This document shows positions 24,396-44,884 of a stretch of DNA of 44,978 nt, in pieces. The translations under genes and the position numbers were made by a program. A model generated the notes under the pieces. The model was not told the DNA's origin. It did no database searches and saw only the letters and a program-made list of their open reading frames with translations. This stretch comes from Candidatus Paraprevotella stercoravium (GTDB taxonomy: Bacteria > Bacteroidota > Bacteroidia > Bacteroidales > Bacteroidaceae). The DNA is taken from assembly GCA_944320795.1 (NCBI GenBank), contig CALUIU010000027.1, positions 1 through 44,978 on the forward strand, written 5' to 3'. Within the stretch, counting starts at the first letter, position 1. Each line of letters opens with the position of its first letter.

Positions 24396-24445
24396 AGTCA
24401 ATCAGACGCAGAAAATTATAAACCAATAATAGATTGAATTTTTGT

Positions 24446-25858: not shown

Positions 25859-25939
25859 ATAACATTATTATACGATCCGTTTGCATCATCCGGATTGAAA
25901 TTAAATCCGAAAATCCAATATCTAAAAACCTTTATCATC

Positions 25940-28414: not shown

Positions 28415-28690
28415 TAAGGGACAAGCGAACCTAAAACGAGGCATAGCATTACAATAAGTACAAGCAATGTCCAAATCAATCAGGTATGCAACAAAATAGG
28501 CTTTAAGAACTTTTTCATTTCTTACGATTATTCCGCACAATGATGAACGTATCACTTTCAAGTCTGATGAGAAACCGGACAAAGAGTAAAATATCATTGC
28601 CACAATGATGGCAAAAGAAAGAATCCTTGATTGAAATCAACGTTTTCTTTTTTTTGCTCGTCAAAAAGAACAATAATATGGCTTTTTTCA

Positions 28691-28698
28691 TACATTTG
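28691..28698 (+). promoter_or_regulatory. Possible -7 element before the lipoprotein pair
   Basis: TACATTTG matches TAnnTTTG and lies 46 bases before the ATG at 28745. No good -33 box is seen. Confidence 0.4.
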
Positions 28699-28744
28699 TT
28701 TCGGAACACATGCTAAACCTAAACAAAAATCAAAAAAGCCGCTT

Positions 28745-29635
28745 ATGAAAAAAATTATTGTATATACGGTCCTAGGATGTATTCTTTGTAGTTGCCGAAT
28801 AATAGAAAAGGAACCTGTATTTCCCGATAAACCAAGCCGTGAAGCCTACGAAGGATTTATATGGGAGAAGATTGAGCAAAACGGATTGAAATTCTGGGCA
28901 CAAAAAAATGCCCAGATTCAAATACAGACCAACCCAGCTATCCCTGGTGCCAAAATTGTCTGGCAAGACTCCCCCAAAAGCAGCCGGATGGTTATGCGTT
29001 TATTTTATCTGCCCCACAAAAAAATTGAAGATCTGCTGGACATTCTGCCTTCAGACACCAGTTGGACTCAAGCTACCGAATGCCAATTTCAGGAGATCAC
29101 TTCACACCGTCCTGGAGTAAAAAGATATGTCCTGCATCCAACAGGAACGGATGGGGAAAAATATCTGATTAAAAGCAAAACAGAACCCATTCCCACAACT
29201 TGTAACGGTTGGGGCGTAGGAAACAGCGGAATCCGGTATTTTGAGATTCAATGCAATCACCCGGACTTGGCCCTATTTGTAGAAATCGGTCAGGATGCCC
29301 CACTCTTTGACGAAGAAAGTATTCTGATTACAGAATCGCAGTTACCTCCCCGCCAAACAATAAATTCGAAAAAAGTTAAAGGCATACTGACACTGGCTCA
29401 CGAAACCCGTTCCTTCCGCGACGAAAAGAATCAGAAAGAATATTGGATTCTAGATCAAACCGGACAACTGTATGAAAAATATGACAGTCTCACGCAAGGA
29501 ATCAAAAACGGAATACCAGTTGAAGCAGAACTATTTGTAAAAGATCAAGAAACAAACAAAGACGGATTTGCAGCCGACTATGCCGGCACATATCAAATAA
29601 TAAAAATCATCAACCTAAAAAAGAAAGAAAAATGA
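28745..29635 (+). CDS. Lipoprotein of unknown function (first of pair)
   Basis: A 296-residue lipoprotein with lipobox LCSC (C17; MKKIIVYTVLGCILCSC). An upstream TTG start at 28631 would place the signal peptide internally, so the ATG at 28745 is preferred. Hydrophilic and mixed alpha/beta with no motif I know. Segments such as WVGN... are absent; the visible ones are NPAIPGAKIVWQDSPKSS, CNGWGVGNSGIRYFEIQC and IKKVKG-type strands near the end. It overlaps the next lipoprotein gene by 4 bp. The C-terminal half resembles a small beta domain (LTLAHETRSFRDEKNQKEYW, AELFVKDQETNKDGF). Function unknown. Confidence 0.78.
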   Translation: MKKIIVYTVLGCILCSCRIIEKEPVFPDKPSREAYEGFIWEKIEQNGLKFWAQKNAQIQIQTNPAIPGAKIVWQDSPKSSRMVMRLFYLPHKKIEDLLDILPSDTSWTQATECQFQEITSHRPGVKRYVLHPTGTDGEKYLIKSKTEPIPTTCNGWGVGNSGIRYFEIQCNHPDLALFVEIGQDAPLFDEESILITESQLPPRQTINSKKVKGILTLAHETRSFRDEKNQKEYWILDQTGQLYEKYDSLTQGIKNGIPVEAELFVKDQETNKDGFAADYAGTYQIIKIINLKKKEK

Positions 29636-29985
29636 AAAACTTATTTTGGATCGGATTTTGTACGTTTACCGTTGTTTGCGGATTGAGTTCTTGTCAAAGC
29701 GAAGCGGAACTGACAGGTACCTGGCTGGAACCCGTACCCGGAATAGAGAATATGCAACAAGGATTCTGTCTAGAAAAAAACGGAAAGGCTTCATCTGTAA
29801 ACATGGCAACCCTACAATATCAGAGTTGGAAACAGGACGGAAAAAAGCTATTATTACAAGGAGTCAGTATAGGGAACGGTACCAGTTTCGAGTTTACAGA
29901 CACAATGAACATTGAGAAGATTACAGAAGACAGTCTGATTCTGAAACGGGGCAATTTTAGCTTAAAATATAAGAAACAAAAATAA
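29632..29985 (+). CDS. Small lipoprotein, lipocalin-like
   Basis: A 117-residue lipoprotein with lipobox LSSC (C21). The rest is beta-rich: LTGTWLEPVPGIENMQQGF, then LEKNGKASSVNMATLQYQSW, LLLQGVSIGNGTSFEFTDT and LILKRGNFSLKYKKQ. The GTW start and the strand pattern recall the lipocalin-like small lipoproteins of Bacteroides, but this is a weak match. Its ATGA overlap with the upstream lipoprotein shows they are made together. A hairpin follows 10 bases after the stop. Confidence 0.75.
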   Translation: MKNLFWIGFCTFTVVCGLSSCQSEAELTGTWLEPVPGIENMQQGFCLEKNGKASSVNMATLQYQSWKQDGKKLLLQGVSIGNGTSFEFTDTMNIEKITEDSLILKRGNFSLKYKKQK

Positions 29986-30578: not shown

Positions 30579-31571
30579 ATGTTTAAAAAGATTTTTGTTT
30601 TCATGCTGCTTTCGGCATCATTAATGCCTCAAATGCAGGGAAAGGAAAAAGAAAAACACACGGTCATGTCGTGTGTAGTCAATAACTTCAAACGGGATAT
30701 GATTTATCTGGACTGTCCACAAACCCCAGTCATTCGTGGAGAGTTTCATCGCAATCCGGGCGAAGAACATCTTCTGACATTCAATACCGACAAACTGGTC
30801 AGTTTAAAACTCAATGGACAAGATTTGGAATTTTATCTTGAACCAGGCGACAGTCTACATGCTGATATTACTTATGGTGACAGACTGGCAGAAACTATCA
30901 TATTCAGTGGAACAAAACGTGCTGTAAGCCAAAATCAGTTTCTTTGGAAACTCTATCGCTACCGTCTGTCTATTCGTTTTAAGATCTCCCTCAACGCATG
31001 TCTCGTTCTTGACCACAAACCAGCAGATCGTATAGCTGCCACAAATAGTTTTGCTCAGGAAGCTCTCAAAATGCTGAAAGAAAATGAAAAAGAATACTCT
31101 ACTTCTTTCAAAAACTACGTTGAAGCTACTATCGAGGCTCTTTGCGGTGAGTCTAAAATATATTACCCGGACCTTTATGCAATGGCACGTCAGAAACCTA
31201 TCAACGAACAAGGTATCGGTGATTACTGGACATTGTTGAATGATTATCAGCCAAGAAGTGATGAGGCTTCATTGAGATGTATGCCTTATGTGGACTTTCT
31301 CATTAAATATATGGTATACCAAAAAGCCAAGAATTCTTCAGACCGTCAAGGTTTAGATCATTATCTTCCAAAAACTGTAGAAGATTCATATAAATTGGCT
31401 ACAGAAACCTTTAAAGGGGCACAATTGGATGCTGTTCTATTCCGGATCCTGACAGGATATATTGTTCAGGGAAAGAATCTGGAAGAGATCGACCCATGGA
31501 TTGCAGATTATAAACAAAAATACAACAAGGAAAAAGAATATGCTGATATTCTGGATCTTTTGATGCAATAA
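30579..31571 (+). CDS. Exported DUF4369-like protein without a thioredoxin domain
   Basis: A 330-residue exported protein (MFKKIFVFMLLSASLMPQMQG). The N-terminal half has the beta pattern of DUF4369-like domains (RDMIYLDCPQTPVIRG, then LEFYLEPGDSLHADITYGD). A helical region follows (NSFAQEALKMLKENEKEYST). TlpA-type proteins with this layout continue after such a helical part into a thioredoxin domain with WCxxC; this one stops at KEYADILDLLMQ. There is no CxxC motif. It is the first gene of the SusC-SusD locus, 81 bp before SusC, and probably periplasmic. It may bind the imported cargo or partner thioredoxins. The domain call is by eye. Confidence 0.75.
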   Translation: MFKKIFVFMLLSASLMPQMQGKEKEKHTVMSCVVNNFKRDMIYLDCPQTPVIRGEFHRNPGEEHLLTFNTDKLVSLKLNGQDLEFYLEPGDSLHADITYGDRLAETIIFSGTKRAVSQNQFLWKLYRYRLSIRFKISLNACLVLDHKPADRIAATNSFAQEALKMLKENEKEYSTSFKNYVEATIEALCGESKIYYPDLYAMARQKPINEQGIGDYWTLLNDYQPRSDEASLRCMPYVDFLIKYMVYQKAKNSSDRQGLDHYLPKTVEDSYKLATETFKGAQLDAVLFRILTGYIVQGKNLEEIDPWIADYKQKYNKEKEYADILDLLMQ

Positions 31572-31652
31572 TCGAATCTGCATAAAAGAAACAGTGCCCT
31601 TATAGCAATCAAAATTAATCAAGTACTTTTAACTTTTAAAAAGAACCAGCCC

Positions 31653-34600
31653 ATGAGGACTAAATCATTAAAAAGTCTGCATTTGGGACGTAGCATAGCC
31701 GTAACTTGCATGAGTGTCGCATTATTAGCTACGCCAACTCTAATTACTGCTCAGAACACACCGGAATCCCGAAAACTGGCATCAGAAAAAATCACTCTTC
31801 GTATCAGTGATGCCCCTCTTAGCTCCATTCTGAAACAGATGGAACAAAAGGCCGGTATCCGCATATCCATTTATGGTGCAATTCCAGGTATTAACCAGAA
31901 AACAACTCTTAATGCACGTAACCGTACCATTAAAAGCATTTTGGAAGAATTGCTTTCAAAACGCGGAGTCACCATTGTTTACGGTGACAATCGTAACATT
32001 AGCCTTTCCGTCCCTGAAGGTTCAGGAAGCAAGGAAGGCATGGTAAAAGTTGCCGGTATCGTCCGTGATGCAGAAACAGGTGAAACATTGATCGGAGCAA
32101 CAGTTACGATAACTGACGGTTCTGGAAACAGTACAGGAAAGGGATGTGTAACTGATCTTGAAGGTAAATATGTATTGGAACTTCCACGAAAATCATCTAT
32201 ACAAGTTTCTTATATGGGTTACAAACAGATCTCCATGCAGATTATGAAATCCCGTTCTAATCTGGATTTTGAACTGAAACCCAACTCTGTTGATATGGGT
32301 GATGTTGTGGTCACCGGTATCAGTAAAAGAAGCAAAAACAGTTTTACAGGTAATTTCGTAACAGTAGACGGAGCCGAACTGGTAAAACTATCTCCAGGAA
32401 ATATTCTGAAGGGTCTGCAATACTTTGATCCAAGTTTTAAGATTGTAGAAAACAATAATGCCGGTTCTGACCCGAACGCACAGCTGGATTTCCGAATTCG
32501 AGGTGATCAGGCTTTAGGATCCAATCGTGAATATTCCAGCATGGAATTAATGCTTGACAACGTATCCAGCCGTCCGAATGTACCGCTGTTCGTTCTTGAC
32601 GGATTCATTGTGCCCATCAGCCAGGTTCTGGAACTGGACCCGATGCGCGTAGAATCAATTACAATTTTGAAAGATGCGGCCGCTACAGCCGTTTATGGAT
32701 CCCGTGCAGCCAACGGAGTGGTCGTAGTTGAGACAAAAGTCGCTCCTGACGGTGCGCTTTCTATTAATTATTCTGGAGGTTTGACCTTGCAGACTCCGGA
32801 TCTTAGTGTATACAATCTGTGTAATGCTGAAGAAAAACTGCGTTTGGAAAAAATGGCAGGAATCTATGATCCTACCAACGCAGAACAGATGAACACCTAT
32901 AATAAATATTTACGCAATATTCAAGCGGGAGTAAACACTTATTGGCTGTCTCAACCTCTGCGCTCGGCCTTGCAACAGCGTCATTCATTGACAGCTGCCG
33001 GAGGTACCGAAGTATTCCGCTACTCATTGGGCGTTAACGCTTCTCTTACCCCTGGTGTTATGAAAGGTTCTTCCAATAACTCCAAAGGTGCCAATTTGAA
33101 CATGAGTTATCGTTTGGGTAAATGGAATGTAGGAGCAACAGTAACTGTAACAGACTCAAGAGGCGACAATTCACCTTACGGTTCTTTCAGCAGCTACAGT
33201 GATGCGAACCCTTATTACACCATCAGAGATGAAAATGGAGAAATCAGCAAGCTGTTGGACGACAAGAATATGGGAACAGGTAACGTTCGTCAGAGAATAC
33301 CCAATCCACTTTACGACGCACAGTTTGATCCAAAAGATTTCTCTACCAATTTGAATTTCTTCTCCGGATTGAATCTGGAATATGCCATTTTGGAAAACCT
33401 GCGCGTTACGGCCCAGTTATCTTATACCCGAGGAATGGCACGTTCTGAACGTTTCCGCCCGGCACAGCTTACAGATTTTGAGAATGTTCAGGACTTAACC
33501 CAAAAAGGTAGTTATACAAAATCTGTAGGTGAGCTAACTTCGTGGAGTACCAATGTGGGTATCAACTACAACAAAACCTGGAAAAAACACCTGATCAGTT
33601 TGTTCGGAAACTGGACAGCGAACGACGATACCAATAATTCCGTCAACCTGTCAGCAACCGGTTATCCGAATGAGAGCATGGATGACTTTATCTTCGGATT
33701 CAAAATGAATACCAATCCTTCGGGTAGTGAGGCTACTTCCCGTTCCATGGGATTCACGGGTCAGCTATCATATTCTTACGACAACCGTTATTCTGTTGAC
33801 GTAAATGTGCGCGGTGATATCTCTTCACAATTCTCCGACCATTCACTTCAACCATTCTGGTCAGTCGGTGCACGATGGAATGCACATCGTGAGAAATGGC
33901 TTGAGGGTATTATTCCAAACCTGACTTTCCGTGCATCATACGGTAAAACAGGAAGTCAGTCTTACAGCCCTTATCAGGCTATTGAATTCTATACATTCTC
34001 TTCAACCATGAAGCCTTACGAGTCATTTGGACTGCTCGGAGCCTTGTTGCAAGGATTACCGAATCCAAATCTGGGATGGGCAACAACGGATAATATCAGC
34101 GCCAGCGCAGACATGGGCTTCTGGAAAAACCGCATTAACCTCAGCTTGAGTTTCTATAACAACATTACAAGACAAATGTTGGTAGATTATGACCTGGCTC
34201 CTTCAACCGGTTTCACATCTCAGATGATCAATGCGGGTGAGATGCAAAATATAGGATTCGATCTCAGCCTGAATGTCATCGCCATTCAAAATTATAGAAA
34301 AGAGTTGTTCTGGACCATTGGTGCCAATGCAAACCACAACCGCAACCGTATCCGCAAAATCTCCAATGAACTGGAAAAGATGAACGCAGAAGCTTTGGCC
34401 TCTACCAGCGCTCCTATTCCAATCTATCAGGTTGGTCATTCTACGTCAACGCTCTACACGGTACGTTCTCTAGGTATTGATCCTGCAACGGGTCAAGAAG
34501 TATACCTGAAGCGTAATGGAGAGAAAACATTTACTTGGGATCCAACAGATAAAGTTCCTGTCGGAGATACCAATCCTAAAGTGAGCGGTTCTATCAATAC

Positions 34601-35039
34601 CTCACTGACTTGGCGTGACGCATACTGTACTTTGGCATTTACCTATAAATGGGGCGGTATTGCCTACAACTCAACATTGGTAGACAAGCTGGAGAATAGA
34701 AATGTGGCACTGAATGCAGACCGTCGTGCTCTGACACAACGATGGACAAAACCCGGTGATGTAACACGATACAAAAGATTATCAACTCTGGGAAGCAATA
34801 CTCCTCAAAGTACACGCTTTATCATGGATGACAATGAATTGGCATTCTCCAGTATCAACGTGGGATACCGTTTCCAGGACACTAAATACAAATTCCTCAG
34901 AGAATGCAGTATCCAGGCTCTGAATCTGGATCTCACAACCAATGATCTCGGACGTCTGTCAACTATAGCCATGGAACGTGGTTTGTCATATCCATTTGCA
35001 CGTTCATACACGCTAACATTATCAGTCGTCTTCAAATAA
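31653..35039 (+). CDS. SusC/RagA-family TonB-dependent transporter with STN domain
   Basis: An 1128-residue outer-membrane importer. After the signal peptide (LLATPTLITAQ) comes a STN domain at about 42-120 (ITLRISDAPLSSILKQMEQK). A carboxypeptidase-regulatory-like domain follows at about 131-205 (GIVRDAETGETLIGATVTIT). The TonB box-like segment is GDVVVTG at about residue 217. The plug (SKNSFTGNFVTVDGAELVKL to KDAAATAVYGSRAANGVVVV) and the barrel complete it, ending SVVFK. It opens with energy from TonB/ExbBD to move a ligand bound by SusD into the periplasm. The STN domain usually signals to an anti-sigma factor, but none is present in the window. SusD follows 40 bp later. Confidence 0.95.
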   Translation: MRTKSLKSLHLGRSIAVTCMSVALLATPTLITAQNTPESRKLASEKITLRISDAPLSSILKQMEQKAGIRISIYGAIPGINQKTTLNARNRTIKSILEELLSKRGVTIVYGDNRNISLSVPEGSGSKEGMVKVAGIVRDAETGETLIGATVTITDGSGNSTGKGCVTDLEGKYVLELPRKSSIQVSYMGYKQISMQIMKSRSNLDFELKPNSVDMGDVVVTGISKRSKNSFTGNFVTVDGAELVKLSPGNILKGLQYFDPSFKIVENNNAGSDPNAQLDFRIRGDQALGSNREYSSMELMLDNVSSRPNVPLFVLDGFIVPISQVLELDPMRVESITILKDAAATAVYGSRAANGVVVVETKVAPDGALSINYSGGLTLQTPDLSVYNLCNAEEKLRLEKMAGIYDPTNAEQMNTYNKYLRNIQAGVNTYWLSQPLRSALQQRHSLTAAGGTEVFRYSLGVNASLTPGVMKGSSNNSKGANLNMSYRLGKWNVGATVTVTDSRGDNSPYGSFSSYSDANPYYTIRDENGEISKLLDDKNMGTGNVRQRIPNPLYDAQFDPKDFSTNLNFFSGLNLEYAILENLRVTAQLSYTRGMARSERFRPAQLTDFENVQDLTQKGSYTKSVGELTSWSTNVGINYNKTWKKHLISLFGNWTANDDTNNSVNLSATGYPNESMDDFIFGFKMNTNPSGSEATSRSMGFTGQLSYSYDNRYSVDVNVRGDISSQFSDHSLQPFWSVGARWNAHREKWLEGIIPNLTFRASYGKTGSQSYSPYQAIEFYTFSSTMKPYESFGLLGALLQGLPNPNLGWATTDNISASADMGFWKNRINLSLSFYNNITRQMLVDYDLAPSTGFTSQMINAGEMQNIGFDLSLNVIAIQNYRKELFWTIGANANHNRNRIRKISNELEKMNAEALASTSAPIPIYQVGHSTSTLYTVRSLGIDPATGQEVYLKRNGEKTFTWDPTDKVPVGDTNPKVSGSINTSLTWRDAYCTLAFTYKWGGIAYNSTLVDKLENRNVALNADRRALTQRWTKPGDVTRYKRLSTLGSNTPQSTRFIMDDNELAFSSINVGYRFQDTKYKFLRECSIQALNLDLTTNDLGRLSTIAMERGLSYPFARSYTLTLSVVFK

Positions 35040-35079
35040 AATCTGATAAAATAAAAATTAATCGATTAAGATATAAAAT

Positions 35080-36510
35080 ATGAAACTCAAAAATTTCATT
35101 ACCCCAATATGCGGTTTGGCATTAACTTTGCTGACAACAACCTCTTGCAGTTGGTTTGATGTAAATCCGAAAACTGACGTAAAAGCCGAGGATTTGTTTT
35201 CAACACCTGATGGTTTTGAAAGTGCACTGGCCGGTATTTACGTTGCCTCAACCGGACGCCAGGCTTATGGTGAGAACTGGACTTTCGGCTTCATGGATAA
35301 ACTGACGCAAAGCTATGACAATATACCACAAGACGAAAGCGCGTCAACGATCTATAATTATACTCGGAACGGCGGCAGCAAGGATGTTCTGGCCACAATG
35401 TGGCAACAAAGTTATTTTCTGATCGCCAATGCCAACAATTTGCTGCGCTGGCTGGACAAACAAGGCGAATCGGTCATTACCAATACCGAGAAGAGACGCA
35501 TGATACGAGGAGAAGCATTAGCATGGAGAGCATACTTGCATTTTGACTTGCTACGTGCTTGGGGACCAATCTATAAAAAAGATCCAAAGGCAAAATCCAT
35601 TCCTTACCGTAAAGCAGCTGATAATAGTAAAAAACCATTGCTGCCTGCTGATTCTGTTGGAAATCTGATCTTGGCAGACATCGACTCCGCTCTTGTACAG
35701 ATGGAATACGAGCGTGATCAAAGTCTGGCGGGTAGCAGCCGACGCTTCCGTTTAAATTATTGGGCAATCATGGCTCTAAAAGCCCGAGTAAATCTTTATC
35801 TCGGCAATAAGGAAGAAGCTGCGCAATGTGCCCGTGAGGTAATTGACAACTCCGGGCTTTTCCTGGCAACGACCAACAACGGTGACCCGGCATTTACGAC
35901 AGAAACCTTATTTGGTATCAATATTTATCAGATGGATGAAAACTATTCAGACGCTTTTGCGCGCGGCCCGGAATTTGGCGACCACTACTATTTGCGCAGT
36001 AATAAGTTCGACCAAATATTTGACCGCAATGGTGAAGGTTTAAATGATATCCGCTGTCGTGATTATGCTTTCTATATTTACAGTGACCAGCAGGTAGCCA
36101 TTACCCGGAAATATCAGACCGCGGTGAATAACCTATACATGATACCTCTTATCCGGCTTCCTGAAATGTATTACATTCTGTGCGAAAGTCTTCCTTTAGA
36201 AGAATCTGCCCAGTACATTTCTCAGGTAATGGAATACCGTGGACTTCTTGGTTATCAAAACTTTACATCGGATCAAGCTCGCGAGGAAGCATTGGAAAAA
36301 GAGTATCGGAAAGAATTCTATGCAGAAGGACAATATTTCTTTTTCCTGAAAGCACACGGAATGGAAAATTTCATATTGCGCCCTACTGACATAGAAAAAA
36401 TGACAGAGACACAATATGTTTTCCCACTTCCTGATGCAGAAAAAGAATATGGTTGGACAGAGGAGGAGACCTCAGAAAACAATCCCTCTGAAGCTCCATC
36501 TGAAAACTAA
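35080..36510 (+). CDS. SusD/RagB-family surface lipoprotein
   Basis: A 476-residue lipoprotein with Cys at 23 (TTTSCSWFD). The fold starts with the standard block DVNPKTDVKAEDLFSTPDGF, then SALAGIYVASTG. The SusD core has TPR-like helices (RMIRGEALAWRAYLHFDLLR, MALKARVNLYLGNKEEAAQ) and the C-terminal block EEALEKEYRKEFYAEGQYFF. It sits on the SusC barrel as a lid that captures the ligand. The tail is acidic (GWTEEETSENNPSEAPSEN). It is placed directly after SusC and before a DUF4843 lipoprotein. Confidence 0.95.
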   Translation: MKLKNFITPICGLALTLLTTTSCSWFDVNPKTDVKAEDLFSTPDGFESALAGIYVASTGRQAYGENWTFGFMDKLTQSYDNIPQDESASTIYNYTRNGGSKDVLATMWQQSYFLIANANNLLRWLDKQGESVITNTEKRRMIRGEALAWRAYLHFDLLRAWGPIYKKDPKAKSIPYRKAADNSKKPLLPADSVGNLILADIDSALVQMEYERDQSLAGSSRRFRLNYWAIMALKARVNLYLGNKEEAAQCAREVIDNSGLFLATTNNGDPAFTTETLFGINIYQMDENYSDAFARGPEFGDHYYLRSNKFDQIFDRNGEGLNDIRCRDYAFYIYSDQQVAITRKYQTAVNNLYMIPLIRLPEMYYILCESLPLEESAQYISQVMEYRGLLGYQNFTSDQAREEALEKEYRKEFYAEGQYFFFLKAHGMENFILRPTDIEKMTETQYVFPLPDAEKEYGWTEEETSENNPSEAPSEN

Positions 36511-36575
36511 GATTTCGTTGTCTATAAAATGATACGAATAAAACATAATTCTATTACTATCCAAAAAGAATAAAA

Positions 36576-37913
36576 ATGAAAACAAAAAAATATATTCCAA
36601 TGCTATTGCTGGGTGTCGGGCTAACCGCTTGCGAACATCAGGAGCCTTTTTTGTTTGATGCTCAGAACAACGGAATATACTTCAATGAAGTATCATCCGG
36701 CTTCCAGAAAATCGTAAACTTCTCAGAACGGGTACTGGATGAAAACTGTACAGACACAACCATTCTTGTAAGTATCCGGGTCTTAGGACATCTCTCTGAT
36801 GCCGAACGCACCTTCACCGTGCAAATGGACACGCTAGAAGGTATAACCAGTCCTGAAGTCACTTTTCCGAGTCAATTTGTTATCCCGGCAGGAGCACACG
36901 AAATAGATTTCCCCGTTACCATAAAACGCCCGGCGGTCATGGATTCAACCTTTGCATTTAAACTTTTGTTGAATCAGGAAAACGGAAGTGATTTCGGTGC
37001 AGGAATAGCCGGACAGAATCAATTGAATGTATACGTAACAGAATCATACCAGAAATCAGGAGCCTGGCTTAGCCAATATTTTGGTGACTGGAGTGCTGAA
37101 AAACAGATATTCCTTTGTCGTTTAGCCGGCAATGCCAACCTAGAAGAGGCGCTGAGTAATCCGCAAACAGATCGTAATAATCTATCGGTTATGGCCGTTG
37201 ACTCTATCCGAAATTTTTATGCGACCCACCCGGGCGAAACGCTCCCATATAGCATGCCATTCTGCTATAAATCCGGAAAGTATGAAGAACTTGTTCCATA
37301 TACCCAACCATCATATTGGGGAGAAGAACAAACAAAATGGGTTGGTCCATATAACGCATATATTTTTGCATCTGTAAACAACGAAGCAGGAATCAATACT
37401 GCCAATGAACAGCAACTATGGAATAACATTGATGAAACCAAAGGAAACAGTTACAACAAGCGTGCAGTAGAGACCATGCTGTCCGTTTATAATACAGCCT
37501 CAACGAAAACGCCGAGAATTCCGGTCACCGAGCGCTTTGGTATTCCAATTATAGAGGGTGTCGCTTATTCTTATCAGAACTGTTTACCTTCTATTTGGAA
37601 TAAGGCACAAGGACTTTTGGCTCCTTATTATGGAAAATATGAAAATCCTATGCTACCAAAAGGAAGAAAAAAATATACTTTTATGCTGAATGCGCTCTAT
37701 CAGGCCAAAAAAGATTCAGACCCTAATTTTTGCCTGTATCTGATGTTCCCTATAATACAAAACGCCCAAGGCACATATATTTTAAGCGATGAAGCATTCG
37801 AAGGTACAGAATACGCCACAGCCACAGAGGCTTTACGTGACTTCAATCGAATCTTCCGTGAAGCAGATGTAAACAATGAATATGGATTTCCGGCAGGAGA
37901 TGAGATAGAATAA
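36576..37913 (+). CDS. DUF4843-family lipoprotein
   Basis: A 445-residue lipoprotein with lipobox LTAC (C19) and an N-terminal beta-sandwich-like region typical of DUF4843 (IYFNEVSSGFQKIVNFSERV, then the beta strands VTFPSQFVIPAGAHEIDFPV and TFAFKLLLNQENG). The C-terminal part, from about residue 160, contains the block SGAWLSQYFGDWSAEKQIFL, with helices and a long loop; its role is not known. DUF4843 proteins are common after SusD in Bacteroides loci and are believed to be surface-exposed parts of the importer complex. The gene lies 65 bp after SusD. Confidence 0.85.
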   Translation: MKTKKYIPMLLLGVGLTACEHQEPFLFDAQNNGIYFNEVSSGFQKIVNFSERVLDENCTDTTILVSIRVLGHLSDAERTFTVQMDTLEGITSPEVTFPSQFVIPAGAHEIDFPVTIKRPAVMDSTFAFKLLLNQENGSDFGAGIAGQNQLNVYVTESYQKSGAWLSQYFGDWSAEKQIFLCRLAGNANLEEALSNPQTDRNNLSVMAVDSIRNFYATHPGETLPYSMPFCYKSGKYEELVPYTQPSYWGEEQTKWVGPYNAYIFASVNNEAGINTANEQQLWNNIDETKGNSYNKRAVETMLSVYNTASTKTPRIPVTERFGIPIIEGVAYSYQNCLPSIWNKAQGLLAPYYGKYENPMLPKGRKKYTFMLNALYQAKKDSDPNFCLYLMFPIIQNAQGTYILSDEAFEGTEYATATEALRDFNRIFREADVNNEYGFPAGDEIE

Positions 37914-37942
37914 ACAGAATCCACAAATAATCCGTATAAAAG

Positions 37943-39661
37943 ATGAAAAAAATAATCACAACAATAGCAACATTGCTTACCCTAACAGCCTGTTATCGGG
38001 ATTTAGGCAATTACGACTACACGTTTGACAAAATGGATCAGATCGAAGAAGTAAAACTCTTCCCAAAGCCAAGTCTGGACCCAAATGGAGACTGGATTTT
38101 GGAATTTGTACAACCAACAGCTGGAACAGGCATGCGCACAGACTGGATCAAAGCTGAAATCACTCATAAATTTCAAGATCAAAAAACCTATGTGTGCCAT
38201 TGGCAATACAATATGCCCATTAAAACAGAAAATGGTTCTTTGACATTTCAGGATACAACCATCACAGCCGACTCAATTCCGGTAATATTTCCTGAAAGGA
38301 CCAATCTTTCATATGAAATCCTACTAGTCATTGAAGACCGATCTGGCAGCCCAGCTAATGGTATCAAACAATACTACTCAATTACAGCTTCATCTGTGCC
38401 TCCATATAAAAACTCTCTGATGGTGCTCCATGGACCAGCAGGCAACAGACATATCGGCAACATTGATGACAACAAACTCCCAGGAACGACCAGTTTCGAT
38501 ATCTGGAAAGATATCTATGGAGATTTGCCCAATCCATTTAGAACAACTGTTAATATTTTTGACAACTCCAGCTATCACGACAATGGTAACTACAGACACA
38601 GTTTGTTTGTAGCAAACTACACTGGATCTGCATATATTTACAATTCCTATGGATTGGGGCTTCTTGAAAATGAATATTGGACCTACCCCAATATCGAGGA
38701 TTATATCATCATTCCAAAGCAAATTGGCAAATACAATCCTGACAACATGTTTGGATTTATGATTGATCAGGAAGGAAGAGCGTATGTTTGCGGACGTGCG
38801 TTCAAGATGCAATTCTTTGAAATCGGTGCAGAAGTCGCTGATGACACGCAGGGACATATCAAGAATGGGGAATACGAAGCAGAATGCGGTATTATGTATG
38901 AAAATTACCTTTTGCTTTGGGACAAAAAAGAAAATCGTTTCCTGACTACTTACTATAGAGGTAACGAGTTTCCTTCCCAAACCTCTTTTAATCGCGCCGA
39001 AGCAAAAATGACAGCACCATTGGTTGATGCAGGTATTAATTTTGATAAGACCAATATTGCCCCGCCAGAAAATATGAGAGCACTTTACGGTTATATCTCT
39101 TGTGATGGAGCACAATTCGGAACTGCAGGATATATGATTTTTGCTGACGAGAATAACAGAGCTTATGCGTATCGAATTGAAATCATAGACAAAAATACAG
39201 ATCAAGAAAGTCTGAATACACGCGGAACACGTGCTTATACACCTGTAGAACGTTTCCGTGTTACTGACCGCATAGAACTGACAGGACTGCAAAATTTCAC
39301 AACTCAGACACCTATGGTATATTATTCACAACTTGATCCGTCATTCTTCTATTATGCAAGTGGCAATGAACTATATCGTTACAACATGACCAACAATCAA
39401 GCACAACTGGTTTATACAGCACCAGAAGGCTACACAATCAATCTGCTGAAATTCCGCTGTGCTACGCATTATGCTCATGCCGGATCATTGCCATCCATTC
39501 TGGACATTGGTATGAATAAGGATGATGAAGGAGCCATTGCAACTATCAAACTGACCAATAGCGGTACGTTAGACAAGACTTTTGAGCCGCGTTTCTATAC
39601 CGGATTTGGCCCTATTGCAGATATTGCATTTGCTCATGAATATATGTATCAACCACAATAA
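37943..39661 (+). CDS. PKD-like family surface lipoprotein
   Basis: A 572-residue lipoprotein with lipobox LTAC (C17), followed by the YRDLGNYDYTFDKMDQ motif that marks this family. A PKD-like immunoglobulin fold at about 40-155 (VCHWQYNMPIKTENGSLTF, LSYEILLVIEDRSGSPANG) precedes a large C-terminal region rich in aromatic and Asn/Asp residues, perhaps a propeller (GFMIDQEGRAYVCGRAFKMQ, LLLWDKKENRFLTTYYRGN). It follows the DUF4843 gene by 29 bp. I infer that it is a surface cargo-binding partner of SusD, as in four-component peptide importers. Confidence 0.85.
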   Translation: MKKIITTIATLLTLTACYRDLGNYDYTFDKMDQIEEVKLFPKPSLDPNGDWILEFVQPTAGTGMRTDWIKAEITHKFQDQKTYVCHWQYNMPIKTENGSLTFQDTTITADSIPVIFPERTNLSYEILLVIEDRSGSPANGIKQYYSITASSVPPYKNSLMVLHGPAGNRHIGNIDDNKLPGTTSFDIWKDIYGDLPNPFRTTVNIFDNSSYHDNGNYRHSLFVANYTGSAYIYNSYGLGLLENEYWTYPNIEDYIIIPKQIGKYNPDNMFGFMIDQEGRAYVCGRAFKMQFFEIGAEVADDTQGHIKNGEYEAECGIMYENYLLLWDKKENRFLTTYYRGNEFPSQTSFNRAEAKMTAPLVDAGINFDKTNIAPPENMRALYGYISCDGAQFGTAGYMIFADENNRAYAYRIEIIDKNTDQESLNTRGTRAYTPVERFRVTDRIELTGLQNFTTQTPMVYYSQLDPSFFYYASGNELYRYNMTNNQAQLVYTAPEGYTINLLKFRCATHYAHAGSLPSILDIGMNKDDEGAIATIKLTNSGTLDKTFEPRFYTGFGPIADIAFAHEYMYQPQ

Positions 39662-39690
39662 TTTAATTAAAAAACATTCAGTAAAGAATC

Positions 39691-40818
39691 ATGAAAATGA
39701 ATCGCTTCAGATCTCTATGCGCAGCAAGTCTTTTCCTTTTAGGACATGCGAGCATAAATTGTCTGGCGCAAACCCAAGCTTCTCAAAAATTCACTGTTAA
39801 AGGAAAAATTGAAGGAGTAGCTTCTGGAAAACTGCTGCTGCTCTCCATTACCGGAGAGCAGACTGCAGATACGCTGGACTCTTTTATCTTTGACACTCCT
39901 GAGTTTGAATTATCCGGTTCGGCCAATAAGCCGTTGTTGGGTAAAATCATTTTGGAAGGATTTTCCGGTGGCTTTGAGTTTCTAGCAGAGCCAGGCGAAA
40001 CATATGCTGCAACACTTGCCAATGGTTCGCAACACCCGATTCAGGGAGGCGTACTACAAAATACCTTGAATAAATATTCTTTAGAAAGGGCCGAGGATCA
40101 AAAAGTTCTCCAAAACTTACAACACACATTTGACAGTTTACGTACAGCCAACAAATACCGAAGTGCCAGTAAAGTAAATGATAGCATCCAAGCCTTTTCA
40201 CAGGAATCTCAGAAGCGGCAAAATAAATTTATGCAGCAAAATGACAACCTTCTTTCTGCATACTTGATGCTTAATTATATCTATAAACAGGATCTTCCTT
40301 TAGAAGGCACCAAACAAGCCTACAATCAACTAGGAGCACAAGCCAAACAATCTGCTGCCGGACAAATTATTGCTCAGCGTATAGCGCGGATGGAAGGAGC
40401 AACAACCGGACGCCAGGCACCAGACTTTACATTACAAACTCCTGAAGGCAAAGAAGTAACACTGAGTAACATTAAAGCAAAAATCAAGATCGTAGACTTT
40501 TGGGCATCATGGTGTGGACCATGCCGCTTAAACAATCCGGACTTGAAGAAACTTTATGAAGCATATAAGGATAAAGGTGTTGAAATTGTAGGTGTATCAT
40601 TAGACAACGTACGCAAGAACTGGATTAATGCAATTGAGAAGGATGGTCTGCCCTGGATACAAGTTTCATCGCTCAAAGGATGGAAATGTTCTACGGCACA
40701 AGCCTACAGTATCTCCGCCATACCTGCTCTTTTTGTACTTGACTCAGAAAACAAAATCATTGCAAGAGACATAAAAGGAGAAGCACTTTGGAATTTTATT
40801 GCAGATTATCTTAAATAA
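39691..40818 (+). CDS. TlpA-like thioredoxin-family protein (WCGPC), exported
   Basis: A 375-residue protein with a signal peptide (CAASLFLLGHASINCLAQ) and a DUF4369-like N-terminal domain (FTVKGKIEGVASGKLLLLSI, EFLAEPGETYAATLANG). A helical linker (EDQKVLQNLQHTFDSLRTA) leads to a C-terminal TlpA/AhpC-type thioredoxin domain from about residue 240 (APDFTLQTPEGKEVTLSN). The active site is C275/C278 in FWASWCGPCRLNNPDL; the cis-Pro segment is SISAIPALFVLD. It is likely periplasmic and would reduce disulfides of imported or resident proteins. It is 29 bp after the PKD-like lipoprotein. Confidence 0.93.
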   Translation: MKMNRFRSLCAASLFLLGHASINCLAQTQASQKFTVKGKIEGVASGKLLLLSITGEQTADTLDSFIFDTPEFELSGSANKPLLGKIILEGFSGGFEFLAEPGETYAATLANGSQHPIQGGVLQNTLNKYSLERAEDQKVLQNLQHTFDSLRTANKYRSASKVNDSIQAFSQESQKRQNKFMQQNDNLLSAYLMLNYIYKQDLPLEGTKQAYNQLGAQAKQSAAGQIIAQRIARMEGATTGRQAPDFTLQTPEGKEVTLSNIKAKIKIVDFWASWCGPCRLNNPDLKKLYEAYKDKGVEIVGVSLDNVRKNWINAIEKDGLPWIQVSSLKGWKCSTAQAYSISAIPALFVLDSENKIIARDIKGEALWNFIADYLK

Positions 40819-40834
40819 TTAATCAATAGAAATC

Positions 40835-41062
40835 TTTCTGTATTTTGATCCTGATATTCTTGCAAAAAATGATAAAAATCAAAATAGTTACAAGATTTGG
40901 ATTTTTCTTTAACAGGAAATAAAAACTGAATCAATAACTTTGCATCACATTTACAATCAGCAAAAGCATGATGTAAAAGTCCCCCTCTTAATGGGGGACT
41001 TATCATAATCAAGATTATTGCAAAATTTTACAACGTATCATACATAAATCAAAATACAGAAA
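40835..41062. repeat. 228-bp segment with perfect 15-bp terminal inverted repeats
   Basis: The left end TTTCTGTATTTTGAT (40835-40849) and right end ATCAAAATACAGAAA (41048-41062) are perfect inverted copies. The segment fills most of the 330-bp gap before the second TlpA-like gene. A 9-bp perfect hairpin (40977-40985 with 40993-41001) lies inside. No target duplication is obvious next to the ends. It could be a MITE-like element, a structured RNA or a pair of regulatory sites. Confidence 0.5.
40977..41001. terminator. G/C-rich hairpin in the gap between two TlpA genes
   Basis: Arms AAGTCCCCC (40977-40985) and GGGGGACTT (40993-41001) form a perfect 9-bp stem with a 7-base loop. No T run follows on either strand, so it may weaken rather than end transcription. 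It stands out in an AT-rich gap. Confidence 0.4.
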
Positions 41063-41146
41063 AGTTCATTACTCCAATTTTAATAACCTAACAGATTTTA
41101 TAAGGTCTACAATGATCATATGGAATCTGTATCAAAAACAAAATCG

Positions 41147-42298
41147 ATGAAAACAAAATTATTATGTAGTGCTGTTTTTTGTCTGGTCTGTGGAAGCATC
41201 CTTGCTCAAGATCAATATAAAATAACAGGCACTCTGACCAATGACACCCTATTCAGAGATAATCAAACTATCAAAAAGATTTACCTGACAAAACTCGAAG
41301 ATGGTAATTACATCCATATAGATTCTACGAACGTCAAAAAACACAAGTTTGCATTCTCCGGTGAGGTTCCTCAACTAAATGAGATGTATTTCATTACAGG
41401 ATTCGATAACGGAACCATCCCTATATTCCTTGAAAAAGGAAATATAACCATAAGCCCATTCAAAGCAGCATATCCGGCATCAGCCATAGTAAACGGCACT
41501 CCAAACAATGACGTAATGGCAGAATTGGCCCAAAAGACGAATGCAGAACTCCAAAAAGGAGGAGAACGGATGAAATCTTTAAAAGAGAATATACGGAATA
41601 ATGAAAAGGAATTTTATGCATATCAACGGGCCTTATTCTTTTCAAATTCAATGCGTGCCAAACTGATTGCATTGGAAGTCATCCTGGAACATACAGATAA
41701 ACCGGCAGCTCTTTATCTGACCAAGACACATCTTTTGAATCTTTTCAATTCCAAAATGATGGAACGTCATCTTCTGAAGGCATTCCCTAAGTCGTTACAA
41801 TCTCATCCGGTATATCAGGAACTGAACAACCTCACCATTGCCCAGAATATGAAAGCGGGAAATCCTGTACCAGCACTCAAAGCCACCACACCCGATGGTA
41901 AAGAACTGTCGCTGGCCGATCTGAAGGGACGTTATGTACTAATCGATTTTTGGGCTTCCTGGTGTGCTCCCTGCAGAAAGGAGTTCCCTTTCCTGAAGCA
42001 AGCACTTGAGCTGGCTGCTGCCTCCAAGAAGTTTGCCATTCTCAGTTTCTCTTTAGATAACAATGCAACAGCCTGGAAAAACTGCATTCAACAAAATGAA
42101 TTAACTCATGCAGACTGGCATCATATTTCAGACTTAAAGGGTTGGAAATCATCCTATGTCTCTATGTTTGGTGTTTCAGCAGTACCACATACCCTGTTAA
42201 TCAATCCGTCAGGCAAGTTAATCACCACAAACCTTCGCGGAGAAGAACTGGTAAGCAAAATTAAAAATATTGTTGAAGGAAAAGAGAAATACGAATAA
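41147..42298 (+). CDS. TlpA-like thioredoxin-family protein (WCAPC), exported
   Basis: A 383-residue protein with a signal peptide (MKTKLLCSAVFCLVCGSILAQ). The ATG at 41120 adds nine residues, but 41147 gives a better signal peptide and an A-rich leader. The N-terminal DUF4369-like domain has YKITGTLTNDTLFRDNQTIK and YFITGFDNGTIPIFLEKG. The C-terminal thioredoxin domain has WCAPC (C273/C276) in FWASWCAPCRKEFPFL, with Ala in place of the more usual Gly. VSAVPHTLLINPSG holds the cis-Pro. It is close in sequence to the next gene, so the two probably arose by duplication. Probably periplasmic. Confidence 0.92.
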   Translation: MKTKLLCSAVFCLVCGSILAQDQYKITGTLTNDTLFRDNQTIKKIYLTKLEDGNYIHIDSTNVKKHKFAFSGEVPQLNEMYFITGFDNGTIPIFLEKGNITISPFKAAYPASAIVNGTPNNDVMAELAQKTNAELQKGGERMKSLKENIRNNEKEFYAYQRALFFSNSMRAKLIALEVILEHTDKPAALYLTKTHLLNLFNSKMMERHLLKAFPKSLQSHPVYQELNNLTIAQNMKAGNPVPALKATTPDGKELSLADLKGRYVLIDFWASWCAPCRKEFPFLKQALELAAASKKFAILSFSLDNNATAWKNCIQQNELTHADWHHISDLKGWKSSYVSMFGVSAVPHTLLINPSGKLITTNLRGEELVSKIKNIVEGKEKYE

Positions 42299-42328
42299 TA
42301 AAAGCTAAGACTATAAAAATCATTTGAT

Positions 42329-43501
42329 ATGAAATATTATATGAAATCATGTTTACTTGCCGCACTCTTCATCGGAGGAACGAGCGTAAATATTTCAGCA
42401 CAGGATCACATCTTTCAGGTAAAAGGAAAAATTGCAGACAAGAATCTTCGTCTGGACAACAAAACCATAAAGACAGTTTATCTGAATCGAATGGATGCCG
42501 CAGAAAAATTTATTGTGGTAGATTCCTCTGAAGTTGCAGCAGACGGTACATTTGAACTATCTTATAAGATGCCAATCAACGCACAACCTGAAATCGGACA
42601 TATTACAGGTTTTGACAATGGAATAACAACCTTATGGATGGAACCAGGAGTTGCAGAAGTCTATATAGAAAAAGCCTTATATCCACAAGCTGCACAAATC
42701 AACGGAACTCCCACAAACAAATTGGCAGAAGAATATAAACAGTTCCGCCAACAATGTATTCGCACTCAAACTGATTTCTTGGAAAAAGCAGGCAAAGAAC
42801 ATGGCACCGCATGGCTTGACGAAGAAGAAGGAATACAACAGCGCACAGAAATAGGTAGCAAAGCAGTTATGCAAGCTTATTGCGATGAAATAAAATTCGT
42901 ATTAGACCATGCTTCCTCACCTATCGCTCCTTTAATTCTTCAAAAAGAGCTGATGTTTCATTTAGACGAATATTCTCTGAATGCCATGATGAATGCAATA
43001 AGTCCGTCACTTCAGAATCATCCCTACTACATCGCAGCACGTAATGCAATTTTGGCCAAATTCCTGAAGGTAGGATCTGAGGTGCCCAATATTGTATTGC
43101 CTACTGTAGACAAGAAAGAAATGCATCTCTCTGATTTACGTGGCCGCTATGTGTTATTGGATTTTTGGGCATCATGGTGCGGTCCTTGCCGTAAAGAAAT
43201 CCCTTATCTGATCCAGTTGTTCAACGATACAAAGGAAAAACGGGACAAACTGACAATTGTCAGTTTCTCTATCGACAATAAAGAAGATGCCTGGAAGAAA
43301 GCGATCAACGATAGAGGCATGAACCTAGAAGGTTGGATACATGCTTCCGATCTCAAAGGATGGCAATCCCCAGAAGCACAAATGTTTGGTGTTGAGGCAG
43401 TGCCACGAACTGTGTTAATCAATCCGGAAGGAAAAGTTGTTGCGTTTGACTTACGTGGAGAAGAGATGGTACGCAAGGTAAAACAATTGATTGGAATGTA
43501 A
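42329..43501 (+). CDS. TlpA-like thioredoxin-family protein (WCGPC), exported
   Basis: A 390-residue protein with a signal peptide (MKSCLLAALFIGGTSVNISAQ; start at 42329 or 42341). The DUF4369-like domain has FQVKGKIADKNLRLDNKTIK and HITGFDNGITTLWMEPGVAE. The thioredoxin domain has C284/C287 in FWASWCGPCRKEIPYL and the cis-Pro region VEAVPRTVLINPEG. It shares the segment ITGFDNG and the overall layout with the preceding gene. It is 30 bp downstream of that gene and followed by a hairpin, so it is the end of the operon. Confidence 0.93.
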   Translation: MKYYMKSCLLAALFIGGTSVNISAQDHIFQVKGKIADKNLRLDNKTIKTVYLNRMDAAEKFIVVDSSEVAADGTFELSYKMPINAQPEIGHITGFDNGITTLWMEPGVAEVYIEKALYPQAAQINGTPTNKLAEEYKQFRQQCIRTQTDFLEKAGKEHGTAWLDEEEGIQQRTEIGSKAVMQAYCDEIKFVLDHASSPIAPLILQKELMFHLDEYSLNAMMNAISPSLQNHPYYIAARNAILAKFLKVGSEVPNIVLPTVDKKEMHLSDLRGRYVLLDFWASWCGPCRKEIPYLIQLFNDTKEKRDKLTIVSFSIDNKEDAWKKAINDRGMNLEGWIHASDLKGWQSPEAQMFGVEAVPRTVLINPEGKVVAFDLRGEEMVRKVKQLIGM

Positions 43502-43522
43502 ATCACAATTTAATCATTATAG

Positions 43523-43558
43523 AGGGCTGTATCGTGAAATACGATATAGCCCTTCTTT
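43523..43558 (+). terminator. Terminator of the SusC/SusD-thioredoxin locus
   Basis: The arms at 43523-43535 (AGGGCTGTATCGT) and 43541-43553 (ACGATATAGCCCT) pair over 13 bp with one G-U pair in plus-strand RNA and a 5-base loop. TTCTTTTA follows. The G-U pair shows it acts on the plus strand. Confidence 0.88.
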
Positions 43559-44020: not shown

Positions 44021-44884
44021 TTAGTCTACAACGACTTTCTTCACTGACTTTCCTTGTTTCACTACATAAACACCAGGATTCAAACCCTCAGTGCTTTTTC
44101 CTACCATCATACCACTCAAGTTATATACAAACTTCGGAGCATTAATCTGGTCTGATTCCAAACCGTCGATACCAGAAACCACTTCAGACATCTCAAAAAG
44201 ACAAAGAGGAGCCTTGTATTCTTCTGTCAAATCAACGAAAGGAGCCAATCTATAATCATAAATAATATCATCTCCGGAAGGATACATCATAAGGTCCAAT
44301 CCGACGCTCATAGCAGTGGCTTTATTCTTTATGGCGAAACCTCCTAATGCATCATCATAAGTAATATCCCAATATGAATCCTCAGTTAATGTACTGTTAT
44401 TCAGGAAAACGCCAGTGACGACATCGTCTTTTCCATCGTCTTTTCCATCATCTTTTCCATCGTCTTTTCCATCATCTTTTCCATCATCTTTACCATCGTC
44501 ACCGCCAATTGGCTTCTGGGCTCCAAGATATGTTCCTTCTTGAGGCAGCAAAGTATATCCCTTCTCTTCCTCTGTAATAACAAAAACCGGTATTCCGTAT
44601 TCATTTGGACGAATCCGGCCATCATCATCTATCTCTACTAGTGTCTGGCAGAGAAGCAGACCTCCCCATCCCCATGGAGCTGACGCAACATACCATCCCT
44701 GATCAGTTGGAACTCCAATCGCATAAGATTTTCCACTGGTAATTTGATCTGTCATCTGATAAATCTTAGTGGTAGGTGCTGGAACTTCACCTTCTTCCTG
44801 TGCAAAAACAGGCATACTCATACAAAAACAAGCTAATGATGTTGTTAACAAACCCTTTAATAAAGTAGAATCTTTCATAAGCAT
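44021..44884 (-). CDS. Secreted protein with DDGK repeats and C-terminal sorting-like domain
   Basis: A 287-residue protein with a signal peptide (LLKGLLTTSLACFCMSMPVFAQ; start at 44884, or at 44878 for MKDSTLL). The N-terminal domain (about 35-125) has KIYQMTDQITSGKSYAIGV and an aromatic segment (YVASAPWGWGGLLLC). Residues about 128-155 are six copies of DDGK. A second region (about 155-225) contains YWDITYDDALGGFAIKNK. The last 50 residues, FVYNLSGMMVGKSTEGLNPG to VVKQGKSVKKVVVD, resemble the T9SS-type (Por secretion tail) C-terminal sorting domain. Function is unknown; attachment or display outside the cell is likely. The gene is single, with its own terminator. Confidence 0.82.
   Translation of the reverse strand: MLMKDSTLLKGLLTTSLACFCMSMPVFAQEEGEVPAPTTKIYQMTDQITSGKSYAIGVPTDQGWYVASAPWGWGGLLLCQTLVEIDDDGRIRPNEYGIPVFVITEEEKGYTLLPQEGTYLGAQKPIGGDDGKDDGKDDGKDDGKDDGKDDGKDDVVTGVFLNNSTLTEDSYWDITYDDALGGFAIKNKATAMSVGLDLMMYPSGDDIIYDYRLAPFVDLTEEYKAPLCLFEMSEVVSGIDGLESDQINAPKFVYNLSGMMVGKSTEGLNPGVYVVKQGKSVKKVVVD
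44429..44500 (-). repeat. Six tandem 12-bp repeats coding for DDGK
   Basis: Six 12-bp units on the plus strand (TTTTCCATCGTC or TTTTCCATCATC, last unit TTTACCATCGTC) run from 44429 to 44500. A partial unit lies at 44422-44428. On the minus strand each unit codes for Asp-Asp-Gly-Lys. The length is a multiple of three, so gain or loss of a unit keeps the frame. The run is an acidic hydrophilic linker between two folded parts. Confidence 0.92.

Follow-up and report, generated by a model that had tools for sequence, protein, structure and literature searches.

We analysed a stretch of 44,978 nt from Candidatus Paraprevotella stercoravium (contig CALUIU010000027.1 of assembly GCA_944320795.1), hereafter called the window. 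It holds an eight-gene locus that is predicted to join a SusC/SusD-type (SusCD) importer to three exported thioredoxins. In the open reading frame (ORF) listing of the window the eight genes all lie on the forward strand at the coordinates given by a first-pass annotation of this DNA (Table 1), and family profiles agree with these positions. From 5′ to 3′ they encode an exported protein that we call N0, SusC, SusD, a DUF4843 lipoprotein, a PKD_2-like lipoprotein and the thioredoxins T1, T2 and T3. The same annotation had called three exported thioredoxins with CxxC. Indeed, T1–T3 in the window are each predicted to have a DUF4369 domain followed by a thioredoxin fold with a WCxxC site.

Table 1. 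Genes and features of the eight-gene locus and its upstream flank in the window (aa, amino acids).
Feature	Position	Strand	Description
N0	30579..31571	+	330 aa exported protein, first gene of the module; Cys46 and Cys141 invariant
SusC-type TonB-dependent transporter	31653..35039	+	1128 aa; TIGR04056, TIGR04057
SusD-type lipoprotein	35080..36510	+	476 aa; PF14322
DUF4843 lipoprotein, long form	36576..37913	+	445 aa; PF16132
PKD_2-like lipoprotein	37943..39661	+	572 aa; PF16407 below cut-off; C-terminal part may be a beta-propeller
T1, exported DUF4369-thioredoxin	39691..40818	+	WCGPC; Ile before the cis-Pro position
T2, exported DUF4369-thioredoxin	41120..42298	+	WCAPC; true start may be 41147
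T3, exported DUF4369-thioredoxin	42329..43501	+	WCGPC in the window; CxxS in many relatives
Terminator-like stem	43522..43554	+	15 pairs, directly 3′ of T3; consensus match
S37 peptidase gene	24434-25753	+	upstream of the module
GH95 glycosidase gene	25895-28414	+	upstream of the module
334-aa lipoprotein-like gene and Lipocalin_3 gene	28631-29985		upstream of N0; 334-aa gene without Pfam match, Lipocalin_3 gene also lipoprotein-like

The SusC protein scored 549 bits against TIGR04056 (cut-off 368) and 60 bits against TIGR04057 (cut-off 46), and the SusD gene, whose product scored 52 bits against PF14322, follows after a gap of 40 bases. Scores above both cut-offs with a SusD gene adjoining predict a SusCD-type TonB-dependent importer. 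The DUF4843 protein matched PF16132 with 46 bits (cut-off 34.5). It is a long form, most matches over the cut-off being short (∼230–320 aa), and its profile showed weak similarity to Na/Ca-exchanger domains (E 0.5–0.8). The PKD_2 protein scored 29.0 bits against PF16407 (E 1.5e-6), below the cut-off of 39.2, while six orthologs in other genera scored 59–66 bits and lie above it. Residues C17, D20, G22, Y24 and Y26 are invariant in the PKD_2 alignment, and a contig scan with the protein found one named relative, 80% identical, in a metagenome-assembled genome of Paraprevotella sp. The AlphaFold model of PKD_2, made from a two-sequence alignment, is poor (predicted local distance difference test, pLDDT, 39.7), and the Foldseek matches obtained with it have low template modelling scores and are largely propeller-like, which is what suggests the propeller entered in Table 1. 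The lipobox cysteine is kept in 29 of 29 SusD, 30 of 31 DUF4843 and 31 of 31 PKD_2 relatives.

The conservation of the locus was assessed in 301 genomes of the family. Full-length relatives of PKD_2, at ∼140 bits or more, numbered 32 including that of the window, any match at all being found in 39 genomes. A profile of N0 likewise gave 32 full matches, from which a weak match in genome G133 (22 bits) was excluded. Combined, the carriers amount to 33 of the 301 genomes and belong to eight genera. For the loci of the other 32 carriers, each ORF of at least 100 aa was scored against profiles of the eight proteins. In 22 of the 33 carriers a single contig holds all eight genes in the same order, namely 20 including the window and two in which T2 and T3 are fused. 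Among the 20 we count genome G006, where SusC lies in two overlapping frames (L064, 2785-6161), owing either to a real frameshift or to a sequencing error. The PKD_2–T1 gap has a median of 38 bases over 24 loci, with an overlap (−4) in two, and the T1–T2 gap has a median of 47 bases and is at most 65 bases in 16 of 24 loci; in the window it measures 301–328 bases.

The locus was cut by contig ends or otherwise incomplete in five carriers. The contig stops after PKD_2 in G160 and inside DUF4843 in G063, N0 is on a separate contig in G130, and the pieces are spread over three contigs in G288. In G278, a genome that is 62% complete, the contig begins in DUF4843 and contains PKD_2, and no N0 was found. 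The remaining six carriers have a split operon, and five of them keep every part. In four (G046, G074, G134, G162), T1-T2-T3 form a unit of their own away from the genes N0 to PKD_2, which stay together. In G190 (contig 4; L132, L144, L087) the genes N0-SusC-SusD are followed by ∼25 kb of other genes and then by DUF4843-PKD_2-T1-T2-T3, both halves being kept. The sixth, G084, has N0 to PKD_2 at one place and T1 with T3 elsewhere. The carrier genomes are mostly drafts, yet one identical split recurs in four of them, and across the split operons there are two different breakpoints with the parts still kept. The first-pass annotation had named restriction to this strain as a finding that would refute its proposal; the arrangement is not so restricted and recurs across genera.

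The thioredoxins also track N0 across the family. T2 orthologs (at least 444 bits) were found in 29 of the 32 N0-positive genomes and in none of the 269 others, where the best score was 204 bits; as at most six candidates per genome were scored, an ortholog may have been missed. Of the three N0-positive genomes that lack T2, G160 and G063 have the locus truncated by a contig end, and the third is G084. Taken naively, this co-occurrence has a hypergeometric probability of 2e-37, but the genomes are related to each other, so that the number of genera in which both states occur carries more weight. As far as the match tables show, seven genera contain both carriers and non-carriers (g1, g3, g5, g7, g14, g17, g25), and T2 tracks N0 in six of them; the exception is g14, with T1 and T3 only. 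For all 28 gene pairs, compared over 22–31 loci, the tree distances correlate at 0.80–0.96, values that no permutation out of 999 attained for any pair. In this test the off-locus trios of G046 and G084 were assigned to the locus of their own genome. That the thioredoxins belong with this type of SusCD locus, as had been proposed from the window alone, is in good agreement with the conserved arrangement across genera, the co-occurrence and the agreeing gene trees.

T1, T2 and T3 form separate clades across genera, from which we conclude that their roles are probably older than the genera. The T1 clade (26 members) has a support of 1.0, the T3 clade (24 members and the two fused halves) 0.98 and the T2 clade (25 members) 0.59, and T2 and T3 jointly have 0.999. 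In several loci the third thioredoxin scored best against the T2 profile and was assigned to T3 by its position and the tree. The active sites differ between the clades. T1 has CxxC in 26 of 26 sequences, with CGPC in each row of the alignment, and T2 has CxxC in 22 of 25, both cysteines being absent from three sequences of genus g7. The 24 T3 sequences comprise 11 with CxxC, 11 with CxxS and two without the first cysteine, so that the resolving cysteine is lost in 13. About half of the T3 sequences thus keep the attacking cysteine and have lost the resolving one, as in trap-like one-cysteine thioredoxins. Together with the fused T3 halves, these counts rule out that all three thioredoxins are reductases. 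Each clade also has a near-invariant extra cysteine column (T1, 24/26; T2, 22/25; T3, 23/24). T1–T3 share the thioredoxin fold, the WCxxC site and the export with the thiol-disulfide oxidoreductases ResA and TlpA, from which they differ in their N-terminal DUF4369 domain and in being tied to SusCD. They scored 58–71 bits against the NCBIfam model of TlpA (cut-off 230) and 67–84 bits against that of ResA (cut-off 170), lie below all NCBIfam cut-offs listed and are not equivalogs of either. One DsbD_TM homolog per genome was found in each of 12 genomes tested, of which 10 were carriers.

N0 starts with a signal-like sequence. The protein of the window had no Pfam, NCBIfam or PDB match, a Pfam search over 20 members of the N0 family gave no convincing match (best E 0.01), and the DUF4369 profile matched neither the window protein nor the 20 members. 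Beyond the family, the N0 profile was run on 394 genomes sampled from the phylum, that of the window among them; it found one full match, the window itself, and two weak partial ones. The first-pass annotation had likened N0 to the N-terminal half of TlpA-like proteins. With signal peptides included, hhalign indeed gave 82.7% for N0 against TlpA-type proteins; without them the values were 5.4% for T2, 5.2% for T3 and 0.8% for T1. For comparison, unrelated profiles gave 0.1–0.4% with N0, and the T2–T1 pair gave 87.7%. The match thus appears to be largely a signal-peptide effect. The AlphaFold model of N0, from a two-sequence alignment, is poor (pLDDT 50.3); it shows strands and then helices, which is compatible with the N-terminal half of TlpA, and a Foldseek search with it gave nothing usable. 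In the alignment of N0, Cys46 and Cys141 are kept in 28 of 28 relatives and Cys234 in 23 of 28. Outside lipoboxes and thioredoxin sites, Cys46 and Cys141 are the only strictly invariant cysteines of the whole module. Apart from the lipobox, no cysteine is strictly invariant in the alignments of SusC, SusD, DUF4843 or PKD_2, the best such columns being 25/29 in SusC, 26/29 in SusD and 26/31 in DUF4843. Because N0 holds these two cysteines, it may be a redox client of the thioredoxins, instead of or besides the imported cargo.

We also looked at other loci in which SusC, DUF4843 and PKD_2 genes lie near a thioredoxin. Six SusC proteins of the window genome score over the cut-off, and only two of their genes stand with DUF4843 and PKD_2, in the window locus and on contig 39. 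Within this genome and its small numbers, a PF00578 thioredoxin-fold gene lies no more than 8 kb from these two SusC genes and from no other. Of 60 PKD_2 matches in nine genomes, at least 18 are followed within 6 kb by a Thioredoxin_8 match on their own strand, and six of these are of the eight-gene type. From 69 PKD_2 matches, nine were dropped because the thioredoxin search did not cover their genomes; 150 of 254 thioredoxin matches were used, which makes the neighbour counts lower bounds. The placement of a thioredoxin gene after PKD_2 thus recurs. The locus on contig 39 (L092) and loci L093–L096 have the same order as the window, with SusC, SusD, DUF4843 and PKD_2 followed by a thioredoxin-fold protein, but differ from it in their short DUF4843, single thioredoxin and lack of N0. 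The thioredoxin of L092, the second such locus of the window genome, branches beside the T1 clade. Genome G178 has a second pair resembling T2-T3 (L139, 10629-13119), ∼3.4 kb from a SusCD locus with short DUF4843 on the opposite strand. Three genomes of genus g7 (G006, G030, G051) have 14–17 PKD_2 and 17 DUF4843 matches each, far above the other genomes searched.

It had been stated that the locus lacks a glycosidase. This is true of the eight genes themselves. Further upstream, however, the same strand carries genes for an S37 peptidase and a GH95 glycosidase, with two lipoprotein-like genes and a gap of 593 bases between them and N0. As none of the eight genes encodes a carbohydrate-active enzyme (CAZyme), we do not class the unit as a polysaccharide utilization locus. 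We compared 20 upstream stretches from other carriers, one of them only 1.9 kb long. Relatives of GH95 were found in two of the 20, G264 (L153, 440 bits) and G160 (L145, 94 bits), and another stands beside the off-locus pair in L101; no relative of S37 was found in the loci and the 20 upstream stretches searched. The sister genome G160 (L062, L145) likewise has both small lipoprotein-like genes upstream of N0; they were found in no other stretch that was searched. As GH95 relatives occur in few loci and S37 relatives in none, we rejected the two genes as parts of the module. The stem after T3 is likely the operon end. Two-box promoters of the Bacteroidetes type had no site in the module and no excess over shuffled sequences in the window. 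Sigma-70-type sites were as frequent as in shuffles, and terminator sites numbered 11 in the region against 10.9 in shuffles. The T1–T2 gap of the window (40819-41119) contains a 7-pair hairpin at 40979-40999 and a TAACTTTG box at 40935. A convergent gene follows the module (44021-44884); its 287 aa product has repeats of a GKDD stretch and matched no Pfam family. In G134, where the trio lies elsewhere, PKD_2 is followed by a histidine kinase gene and a response-regulator-like gene (L089, 11057-13278), which were not seen in the other flanks compared.

Taken together, the gene set and order are conserved, the genes co-occur, are retained after splitting and diverge together, and the active sites are conserved; these points are established, and the comparative genomic data give good support to a link of the thioredoxins with the importer. 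We propose, with about as much confidence as doubt, that the eight proteins form a dedicated module for uptake and redox chemistry, an importer joined to a periplasmic thiol-disulfide module. Localisation, direction of import, reduction and electron source are what we infer. SusC, SusD, DUF4843 and PKD_2 would capture a ligand at the cell surface and, by analogy with the SusCD family, import it across the outer membrane through a TonB-driven pedal-bin mechanism. T1 and T2, with their thioredoxin-like CGPC or CAPC sites, would act in the periplasm by thiol-disulfide exchange with the imported ligand, with N0 or with both, and would probably be reduced via the DsbD homolog of the cell. N0, with its two invariant cysteines, is a likely partner or receiver in this exchange, and T3, with CxxC or CxxS depending on the lineage, could be either another reductase or a trap or carrier with a single cysteine. 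The thioredoxins would thus have two candidate clients, the cargo and N0. The ligand would most likely be a cysteine-bearing peptide or another thiol or disulfide compound. We favour exchange of a sulfur-bearing ligand with N0 as its receiver or partner, for which we see about even chances, and rate any specific cargo lower. A covalent hand-over, in which a thiol or disulfide ligand passes through mixed disulfides of N0 and T3 with CxxS and is released in reduced form by T1 and T2, is a more speculative version that we think doubtful.

Several observations weigh against the proposed module. The trio of G278 was found neither after PKD_2 nor elsewhere in that 62% complete genome, and T2 is absent from G084. 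The cysteines of N0 are also kept where the trio is off-locus, and their link to thiol exchange is read from conservation. The three T2 sequences of g7 without both cysteines, the 13 of 24 T3 sequences without the resolving cysteine and the two fused T3 halves, neither of which has CxxC, all point away from a uniform reductase function, and the T2 clade has the low support given above. DsbD was present in the two tested non-carriers as in the 10 carriers. Relatedness of the genomes inflates both the co-occurrence and the tree correlations. Finally, T2-T3 could have their own promoter in the window, given the long T1–T2 gap and its hairpin.

Following the first-pass annotation, the importer could take up peptides that are rich in cysteine or held by disulfide bonds, with the three thioredoxins reducing them in the periplasm; peptidases there could then act on them. 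The unsplit loci bear on this, as the gaps between the eight genes are at most 454 bases and leave no room for a further gene, and hence for a glycosidase; the conserved thioredoxin sites of T1 and T2 are also as expected. Against PDB chains, the SusC protein scored 162 bits with 8aa4, 140 with RagA, 109 with 5t3r and 76 with BT_2264 (5fq6). RagA is a peptide importer and its score almost equals the best, but that best match, 8aa4, is a glycan system that is not known to import peptides, and the BT_2264 match is weak. RagAB of Porphyromonas gingivalis is like the window locus a SusCD-type importer, to which the window SusC is no closer than to 8aa4, and is not known to have a thioredoxin trio. 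The annotation had further compared the locus to BT2261–BT2264 of Bacteroides thetaiotaomicron, where SusC and SusD occur with two further proteins and bound peptide, as they do here with two further proteins; in the excerpts of the two sources consulted no thioredoxin is mentioned there, while the window locus has three (PMC7782687, PMC9599597). By sequence this likeness does not hold, since BT_2264 is a weaker match than 8aa4, RagA and 5t3r. Nor did the extra lipoproteins show a relation to BT2261 and BT2262 by sequence: as single sequences and as profiles, the DUF4843 and PKD_2 proteins had no match beyond chance (best E 0.14) in a PDB copy whose content of BT2261 and BT2262 chains was not checked directly, and at the level of the fold the comparison was made with a poor model. 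The likeness rests on the presence of two extra lipoproteins. As the module also has no peptidase, and about half of the T3 proteins would be unable to complete a reduction cycle alone, we consider the peptide explanation rather unlikely.

The invariant cysteines of N0 lend themselves to another explanation, in which the trio serves N0 or the importer, keeping the N0 cysteines in the right redox state or folding module proteins, and the cargo is free of sulfur, for example a glycan. In its favour, N0 is the sole module protein with strictly invariant cysteines other than those of lipoboxes and thioredoxin sites, and glycan SusCD systems can also carry two extra lipoproteins. Three thioredoxins nevertheless seem excessive for one client with two cysteines, the four importer proteins offer no strictly invariant non-lipid cysteine to maintain, and a CAZyme is lacking from the module, so that we regard it as unlikely.

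The propeller-like matches of PKD_2, weak as they are and obtained with a poor model, would fit uptake of a metal, heme or siderophore, with the lipoprotein binding the chelate and the thioredoxins reducing the metal or thiol ligands. Xus-type iron systems have propeller lipoproteins. The excerpt consulted of an iron-response study of three Bacteroidetes lists TlpA and SusCD genes apart and contains no such locus (PMC10434189). We think this explanation quite improbable. That the SusCD locus and the oxidoreductase genes are neighbours by descent only, without functional link, is very improbable. Thioredoxin-fold genes are common (8–39 Thioredoxin_8 matches per genome), which would fit it, but co-occurrence in 29/32 against 0/269 genomes and retention after operon splitting speak against it.

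Glycans are the main cargo known for SusCD importers, with peptides in a few cases. Both SusCD loci with lipoproteins and TlpA-like genes are of known kinds. In the titles, abstract openings and passages that full-text searches of open papers gave, with the subscription literature mostly outside, we found no description of the fixed eight-gene set, with a first protein of no described family and a thioredoxin trio of three roles, nor of a module of SusC/SusD with DUF4843 and TlpA-like or DUF4369 thioredoxins. The covalent hand-over, if true, would to our knowledge make this the first SusCD importer with a dedicated thiol relay on the periplasmic side. The locus allows a defined test of what the importer binds and of which of the two, N0 or the ligand, the thioredoxins serve. 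Import that is stably tied to three thioredoxins and N0 would widen the range of nutrients that these importers may handle.

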